Assembly: GCA_019694755.1 (NCBI GenBank)
Contig: JAIBBI010000007.1
Coordinates: forward strand, 1-64,000
Length of the DNA stretch: 64,000 nucleotides
Reading direction: 5' to 3'
DNA from: Gemmataceae bacterium
GTDB taxonomy: Bacteria > Planctomycetota > Planctomycetia > Gemmatales > Gemmataceae
The notes beneath the pieces were generated by a model that made no database searches, had not been told where the DNA came from, and saw only the letters and a program-made list of their open reading frames with translations. The translations under genes were made by a program, and so were the position numbers. Position 1 is the stretch's first letter, and each line of letters begins with the position of its first letter. Below, in pieces: positions 37,172 to 38,901 of the stretch.

Positions 37172-37621
37172 ATGTTTCGCACTGCTACGCTCATCTGGCT
37201 CGCGCTCGTGTTCTCCGCTGGCGCACAGCCGAAGACCACGGAGACGGTCGTCAAGGTGTCGGCCAAAGCGGAGAAACCTTCCGCCGACGGCACCCAAACC
37301 GTCGTCTTCACCGTCAGGATCGACAACGCTTATCACCTTTACGCCAACCCGGTCAAAAACCCCGACCTGGACGCCGCCCAGACCAAACTAACAGTTACCG
37401 GTGCGGAACTGGTCAAGGTCGAGTACCCGCCGGGGAAACTGATCGTCGACAAGATCGTCGGCGACTACGCCGTCTACGAGGGCGAGATCAAGATCACGGC
37501 CCGTGTGCGAAAAAAGGTCGGCGCGACCGGCCCCGTCGAATCTACCATCAAGTGCCAGGCCTGTTCGGAAAAGGCGTGCCTTCCCATTGGAAACATCAAG
37601 ACTCGAATCGAGCTCCCCTGA
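37172..37621 (+). CDS. secreted DsbD N-terminal-domain-like thiol protein
   Basis: This 149-residue protein has a short signal peptide (FRTATLIWLALVFSAGAQ) and one domain resembling the N-terminal periplasmic domain of DsbD. The YHLYANPV segment is followed by KCQACSEKACLPI, with C128, C131 and C136. In DsbD the cysteines equivalent to 131 and 136 carry reducing power to periplasmic partners. The membrane and thioredoxin domains of DsbD are absent. GGGAGGAA precedes the ATG. It lies 13 bases upstream of the selenoprotein gene and may share its transcript. Confidence 0.82.
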   Translation: MFRTATLIWLALVFSAGAQPKTTETVVKVSAKAEKPSADGTQTVVFTVRIDNAYHLYANPVKNPDLDAAQTKLTVTGAELVKVEYPPGKLIVDKIVGDYAVYEGEIKITARVRKKVGATGPVESTIKCQACSEKACLPIGNIKTRIELP

Positions 37622-37634
37622 TACAGGAACAACC

Positions 37635-37871
37635 ATGGAATTGACTCTGACATACTGCTCCCTCTGAAACTATGAACCGCAAGCCGTCAGTTTGACGGCC
37701 AAGCTGCTGACCACGCTCAAGCAGAAAATCACCTCAATGCGCCTGATCCCGTCCGCGGGTGGCTGCTTCGAGGTAACGGCCAATGGCGAATTGATCTACT
37801 CGAAGCTTGCAACCCACAAGTTTCCGGACGAGGACGTGATTCTCGCGGAAATCCGTCGTCGACTCCGCTGA
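37635..37871 (+). CDS. SelW-like (Rdx family) selenoprotein with in-frame UGA for selenocysteine
   Basis: Reading from the ATG at 37635 (AGGA six bases upstream) through the TGA at 37665-37667 gives a 78-residue protein that ends at TGA 37869-37871. With the internal TGA read as selenocysteine, residues 8-11 are C-S-L-U, the CxxU redox motif of the SelW/Rdx family, in the context LTYCSLUNYEP. The rest also matches the family: a helix after the motif, then SAGGCFEV, GELIYSK and HKFPDEDVILAEI. A hairpin starts 15 bases after the UGA. selD follows 16 bases downstream. The protein is probably a cytosolic thioredoxin-fold redox protein. The UGA makes the gene look like two fragments; the downstream match to the family argues against a pseudogene. 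Confidence 0.9.
37683..37699 (+). promoter_or_regulatory. bacterial SECIS-type hairpin inside the SelW-like gene
   Basis: GCCGTCA (37683-37689) and TGACGGC (37693-37699) form a perfect 7-bp stem with the loop GTT. The loop begins 22 bases after the UGA, and its first base is G. Bacterial SECIS elements lie in the coding region just after the UGA and present a G in the apical loop to SelB. SelB itself is not encoded in this window. Confidence 0.78.
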
Positions 37872-37887
37872 CTGACCGAGGACTCCG

Positions 37888-38901
37888 GTGAACGAGAAGA
37901 AACGACTGACGGACTTCGCGTCGTGTGCCGGCTGCGCCGCCAAGGTTGCGGCCGGTGGCATCTCCGCCATCCTCAAGCACCTCCCTGTCAGCGACGATCC
38001 GAACCTGCTCGTCGGCACTGCGACCCACGACGACGCGGGCATCTACATGATCTCGCCCGACCTCGCAATGGTGCAGACGGTCGACTTTTTCCCCCCGACG
38101 GTCGACGACCCGTTCGTGTACGGGCAGGTCGCGGCGGCCAACGCGCTGTCCGACGTGTACGCTATGGGCGGCACACCCAAGACCGCCCTTAACCTGTTCG
38201 CATTTCCCGAAAAGGAAGCGGATCCGGATTGGCTTGGGGCCATCCTGGACGGCGGGGCCGATCGCATGCGGGCGGCCCGGTGCATCGTCTTGGGCGGCCA
38301 CAGTGTCCGCGACGCGGAAATCAAGTTCGGGTATGCCGTCACCGGGTTCGTCCATCCCGAGCGGTTCCTCACCAACGCGGGGGCCAAGCCCGGCGACTTG
38401 CTGGTACTGACCAAACCGCTGGGCACCGGATTCGTAACCACTGCTGCCAAGAAGTTGCAATGCCCCGCTGAGACGCTTGCAGCTGCCTGCGCCTCTATGG
38501 TCGCCCTCAATGAGGAGACGAGCCGGCAGGCTCTCGAAGCCGGCGCCCATGCCATGACCGACGTGACTGGATTCGGTTTGGCAGGTCACGGCCTCGAAAT
38601 GGCCGACGGTTCGGGCGTGACGTTGCGACTCCGACTGGCATCCCTGCCGGCTTTCCCGGGGGTCGAAGACCTCATCCGCAACAAGTTTCAAACCCGGGCC
38701 AGCACATCGAACCGCGCATATGTGAACGACAGTCTGCGATTCGAATCGGACCCGGATCCCATAAGGGCTGAACTGCTTTTCGACGCCCAGACGTCCGGTG
38801 GATTGCTGATCGCCGTCCCGGCCGGGCGCGAGCGACAGATCGACGGCGTGGTCATAGGCGATGTGCTTCCGAAAGGCGATGTGAGCCTTCTCATCACTTG
38901 A
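37888..38901 (+). CDS. selD: selenide, water dikinase
   Basis: SelD makes selenophosphate from selenide and ATP, the selenium donor for selenocysteine. The 337-residue protein has an N-terminal SCAGCAAK segment. C16 aligns with the catalytic Cys/Sec of SelD and K19 with the essential lysine, while the second cysteine of the usual CGC is Ala. The later segments VQTVDFFPPTVDDPF, ANALSDVYAMGG, VLGGHSVRD and MTDVTGFGLAGHG are typical. The start is GTG at 37888 with GAGGA upstream. It directly follows the SelW-like selenoprotein gene, which supports active selenium use. Confidence 0.95.
   Translation: MNEKKRLTDFASCAGCAAKVAAGGISAILKHLPVSDDPNLLVGTATHDDAGIYMISPDLAMVQTVDFFPPTVDDPFVYGQVAAANALSDVYAMGGTPKTALNLFAFPEKEADPDWLGAILDGGADRMRAARCIVLGGHSVRDAEIKFGYAVTGFVHPERFLTNAGAKPGDLLVLTKPLGTGFVTTAAKKLQCPAETLAAACASMVALNEETSRQALEAGAHAMTDVTGFGLAGHGLEMADGSGVTLRLRLASLPAFPGVEDLIRNKFQTRASTSNRAYVNDSLRFESDPDPIRAELLFDAQTSGGLLIAVPAGRERQIDGVVIGDVLPKGDVSLLIT

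Follow-up and report, generated by a model that had tools for sequence, protein, structure and literature searches.

A selW-like gene with a predicted selenocysteine codon, a conserved SECIS hairpin and an adjacent selD gene in a planctomycete

In the window (the whole stretch of DNA analysed, 64,000 nucleotides), the following features were assigned, all on the plus strand; the kind of evidence is given at the end of each line.

37625-37628, plus strand: Shine-Dalgarno-like AGGA, 6 nt 5' of the ATG at 37635 (sequence)
37635-37871, plus strand: selW-like gene, 78 amino acids, predicted Sec at codon 11, stop TGA at 37869-37871 (matches to Rdx PF10262 and TIGR02174; homologues with the same TGA)
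37665-37667, plus strand: in-frame UGA, the putative selenocysteine codon of the CxxU motif (sequence; homologues)
37683-37699, plus strand: putative bacterial SECIS hairpin GCCGUCA-GUU-UGACGGC, 7 bp, GUU loop 22 nt after the UGA (fold; conservation; compensatory changes)
37888-38901, plus strand: selD, selenide water dikinase, GTG start, Cys form SCAGCAAK (TIGR00476, 363 bits; recurring selW neighbour in relatives)

The sequence-only reading had described an ATG with a ribosome site, a TGA as codon 11 and 67 more codons up to a true stop, and all of these were located at the above positions. The predicted read-through product is MELTLTYCSLUNYEPQAVSLTAKLLTTLKQKITSMRLIPSAGGCFEVTANGELIYSKLATHKFPDEDVILAEIRRRLR, in which the three segments previously pointed out as the Rdx/SelW pattern beyond the UGA (GGCFEV, GELIYSK and HKFPDEDV) are present. 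SelW genes are reported to have been overlooked by gene callers in Epsilonproteobacteria (PMC4607533); the present case corrects a gene that ordinary annotation would tend to truncate.

The similarity of the UGA-as-Sec translation to Rdx proteins, which had been named as the point to check, was strong: the match to Pfam Rdx (PF10262) scored 72.2 bits (E 4e-20; profile positions 2-73 of 74), and that to NCBIfam TIGR02174 (CXXU_selWTH; "SelT/SelW/SelH family") scored 65 bits, above the family cut-off. The best solved Rdx protein found by sequence search was 2obk (E 1.5e-8). Across the 5.6-Mb genome (97% complete), Rdx matches were confined to the selW locus, which contains one TGA. The CxxU motif is CSLU (residues 8-11) and was aligned with CTMC of a Cys-type relative (L011) and with CTQC of 2obk; the UGA thus stands where the CxxC homologues have their second Cys, in agreement with its earlier placement at the second redox residue of the family. 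The AlphaFold2 model, calculated with 26 relatives as input, had a pLDDT of 93.6, and in a Foldseek search with this model the bacterial SelW-type structures 2obk, 2fa8, 3dex and 2p0g ranked first (TM about 0.9), with a TM of 0.69 for mouse SelW (2npb). The overlay of the model on solved bacterial SelW-type proteins gave a TM of about 0.92. In the predicted model, the CxxU follows the first strand and precedes the first long helix, in the manner of thioredoxin-like redox proteins, and the predicted fold of the protein is the thioredoxin-like Rdx fold.

An Rfam gathering scan of the window gave no family match; the hairpin was therefore tested by published constraints for bacterial SECIS elements and by covariation. 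It starts 15 bases past the UGA, and its 7-bp stem is perfect. The published model requires a loop of 3-9 nt with an early G, a stem of 4-16 bp, a spacing of 16-37 nt and an energy of -7.5 or lower (PMC13188914), and the hairpin lies within all four limits (GUU loop, 7 bp, 22 nt); the region folds at -12.1 kcal/mol and the isolated hairpin at -9.9 kcal/mol. The fold of the single sequence is weak by itself (z -1.6), because a loose hairpin model is satisfied near 62 of the 823 TGAs on the plus strand of the window, and it is the comparative data that carry weight; note that a GUN-triloop hairpin of at least 5 bp at 22 nt was found after the selW UGA only. Synonymous choice hardly varies for the loop codons in 78 distinct homologues that carry the UGA: Ser is encoded by AGT in 73 (8% in neighbouring genes) and Leu by TTG in 55 (12% in neighbouring genes). 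Across 59 sequences, 86.9% of the cells of the 7-bp helix are paired, compared with 20-45% in slid versions, and in four pairs both partners have changed (e.g. C-G to U-A); cells of this kind number 11, compared with 1.6 after shuffling, a control that is not a probability since the sequences are related. At the level of sequence comparison, the codon skew and the compensatory pairs show constraint on the RNA. The hairpin is kept in most relatives, its two outer pairs being often broken, which, like the number of TGAs with a loose hairpin nearby, counts against the selenoprotein reading; a few relatives (L056, L059, L076 and L092) are without a hairpin of the window type, and an alternative hairpin (UCAGGC-CGUGA-GCCUGA, loop at 17 nt) was found instead.

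The presence of selA, selB and tRNA-Sec in the rest of the genome, also proposed as a check, was confirmed: selA was found with 432 bits, selB above its own cut-off with its N- and C-terminal portions sharing a frame, and tRNA-Sec (selC) with 78.9 bits and the anticodon UCA. In addition, selD scored 363.5 bits against TIGR00476 (cut-off, 125). Sec machinery has been reported in Planctomycetes including G. obscuriglobus (PMC4807772); here a complete selenocysteine system is seen in a planctomycete together with a clear client, SelW. SelA was found in 87 of 95 genomes of the same taxonomic family, and the nearly complete genomes G049 and G094 have neither SelA nor SelW. Seven genomes (G014, G031, G032, G039, G069, G077 and G082) have a UGA-containing SelW with no full-length SelA detected; these are mostly incomplete, with the exceptions of G032 (92%) and G039 (95%), and they count against the selenoprotein reading.

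An Rdx match was present in 76 of the 95 family genomes. A chance origin of the TGA was dismissed because, of the 89 Rdx matches in the family, 82 have exactly one in-frame TGA and three have two (85/89 keep the TGA; four are without it). Searching the GTDB species genomes yielded 55 relatives, nearly all labelled Planctomycetota, with C/U-xx-U motifs. For the codons that follow the UGA, dN/dS was about 0.01-0.14 when five pairs of relatives were compared and 0.2 for the window against L042; this segment is therefore translated and important. Two relatives have a decayed-looking SelW, with the Sec codon changed to Gly (CSVG) in L099 (G005) and a frameshift past the Sec region in L100 (G087); these changes could be function loss or assembly errors.

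The gap between selW and selD, the next gene downstream, is 16 bases, and the encoded SelD has the catalytic Cys and the following Lys (SCAGC-AAK). A same-strand selD directly after selW was found in 26 of 86 loci (the window included; two genomes counted twice), including loci of Gemmataceae and Isosphaeraceae; many of these pairs are less than 20 nt apart and others 60-205 nt; in the remaining 60 loci, some of which are too short to judge, there was no adjacent same-strand selD match. SelD itself is a predicted Sec protein (SCAGU-AGK, CxxU) in 24 of the 26 pairs and has Cys in the window and in L052 (Aquisphaera insulae); the CxxC form is reported to be rare in single-domain SelD (PMC2398784). 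The recurring gene order supports, as far as genome comparison goes, a functional link with selenium supply and is not proof of one; it hints that the function of bacterial SelW may be close to selenium metabolism. The upstream DsbD_N-like gene, an MFS gene and the downstream purA are not conserved as neighbours of selW in relatives. The DsbD N-terminal-like gene (37172-37621; 46.9 bits; CQACSEKACLP) ends 13 nt upstream of selW; a DsbD-SelW partnership was dropped because this gene is not conserved beside selW.

We conclude that the gene is almost certainly a genuine selenoprotein gene, encoding a small thioredoxin-fold protein of the SelW/Rdx type with the UGA decoded as Sec; the Rdx match, selA/selB/selC/selD and the conserved SECIS support the original assignment of 37635-37871 as a SelW-like selenoprotein. 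A pseudogene or a sequencing or assembly error, namely, a former Cys-type SelW with a nonsense mutation, would fit the existence of Cys forms of Rdx (L011 and the PDB relatives) and the decayed appearance of single relatives (the G087 frameshift and the G005 CSVG), but is highly improbable given that the same UGA codon occurs in dozens of genomes across genera and orders, that purifying selection goes on past it, and that the genome has the complete Sec machinery and the gene a conserved SECIS. The in-frame UGA within a conserved protein could also reflect an altered code in the lineage, with UGA reassigned to Trp, or non-specific readthrough. However, UGA is an ordinary stop nearby (DsbD_N, 37619-37621; SelW, 37869), with no SECIS-like hairpin after either; the genome has a tRNA-Sec with UCA, and the UGA residue aligns with the second Cys of CxxC homologues and not with Trp, so that the chance of this explanation is close to nil.

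A further explanation takes the UGA as a selenium-dependent switch, in which read-through of selW versus termination tunes selD translation and selW is partly a leader cistron reporting selenium status. The 16-nt gap to selD, the spacing below 20 nt that many of the other adjacent pairs show and the adjacency in Gemmataceae and Isosphaeraceae loci speak for such a switch, whereas the strong selection on the SelW protein itself, the 60 of 86 loci without the adjacent selD (with the above reservation on short loci) and the gaps of 60-205 nt, which speak against tight coupling, make it quite unlikely. For the selenoprotein reading that we prefer, the following mechanism is proposed: the hairpin at 37683-37699 would recruit SelB carrying Sec-tRNA-Sec, and the ribosome would then decode the UGA at 37665 as selenocysteine; SelA would make the Sec-tRNA from selenophosphate supplied by SelD, whose gene, directly downstream, is probably in the same operon as selW. 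C8 and U11, located where the first helix begins, may form a selenenylsulfide/thiol redox centre, and its target would be some thiol or peroxide.

SELENOW-like CxxU proteins are a recognised family of bacterial selenoproteins (PMC13188914, PMC9312934), and the sequence-only reading had named SelW-like proteins as selenoproteins in some bacteria; SelW-like proteins were the most numerous selenoproteins in the Global Ocean Sampling (GOS) data (PMC2398784), and the functions of the bacterial group remain largely uncharacterised (PMC13188914). The protein encoded in the window thus belongs to an already well-known family. It shares with the bacterial SELENOW-like proteins (PF10262/TIGR02174; e.g. 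SelW of Campylobacter jejuni and Geobacter sulfurreducens, and the GOS SelW-like proteins) the Rdx domain, the length of about 80 amino acids, the one-Sec CxxU, the SECIS right after the UGA and the redox-like character (PMC13188914, PMC2398784, PMC1242214), but the planctomycete branch differs in that its motif is followed by NYEPQAVSLT, the SECIS triloop is almost always GUU or GUC, and the gene often lies beside selD. The Cys-type Rdx proteins (2obk, 2fa8, 2p0g, 3dex and 2oka) resemble it in fold and in the principal motifs, with a TM of about 0.9 and an identity of about 30%, but have Cys in place of Sec and neither UGA nor SECIS. Mouse SELENOW (2npb) and MIEN1/C17orf37 (2ljk) share the Rdx fold and a CxxU or CxxC motif; however, the identity is about 21-29%, and the eukaryotic SECIS sits in the 3'-UTR.

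Less expected than the family assignment are the recurring selW-selD adjacency and a double-Sec (UxxU) SelW in relatives. The latter was found in three genomes of two genera (L069/L096 and L080/L097 in genus g15; L098 in genus g28; L096 at about 960-1200 on the plus strand, L097 and L098 on the minus strand), with the motifs YUAMUGYEP and YUSMUGYEP, in which both redox residues are encoded by UGA; sister genomes in both genera have a CxxU SelW. A phylum-wide search of 392 genomes (that of the window and others outside its family), with a pattern that matches the five known loci, gave no UxxU SelW. One SECIS, with its loop 31 nt from the first UGA, could serve both codons. Reviews list the SELENOW-like family as CxxU with one Sec (PMC13188914, PMC9312934), and we found no description of UxxU SelW in recent reviews of the family, an absence that is not proof of novelty. 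As a speculation that we consider unlikely, selW and selD might be an old bicistron in Gemmataceae/Isosphaeraceae, in which Sec decoding would report selenium status and tune selenophosphate synthetase; SelW would serve selenium/selenophosphate chemistry and not general redox defence, and the active site in a side branch would now be a diselenide (UxxU).

Other selenoproteins of the genome were sampled through one redoxin profile; a formate dehydrogenase examined as a further Sec gene had no in-frame TGA. A second candidate in the same genome is L101 (G000:C80:102300-103800), TlpA/redoxin-like with WGIHUGPC (UxxC), in which the UGA is at about 680 and is followed after 29 nt by a hairpin with a GGUC loop. 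A third is L102 (G000:C233:13400-15000, minus strand), an AhpC-TSA_2 protein with HFGUTFC (UxxC), whose hairpin is less clear. These UGPC and UTFC candidates were counted as support for the selenoprotein reading of SelW. Some genomes of the family also have a second, divergent SelW paralogue with YCTSUGYRNF (L024, L027, L030 and L038), and in L024, L027 and L038 the GUU loop at 22 nt is kept, with a C-G pair in place of U-A.
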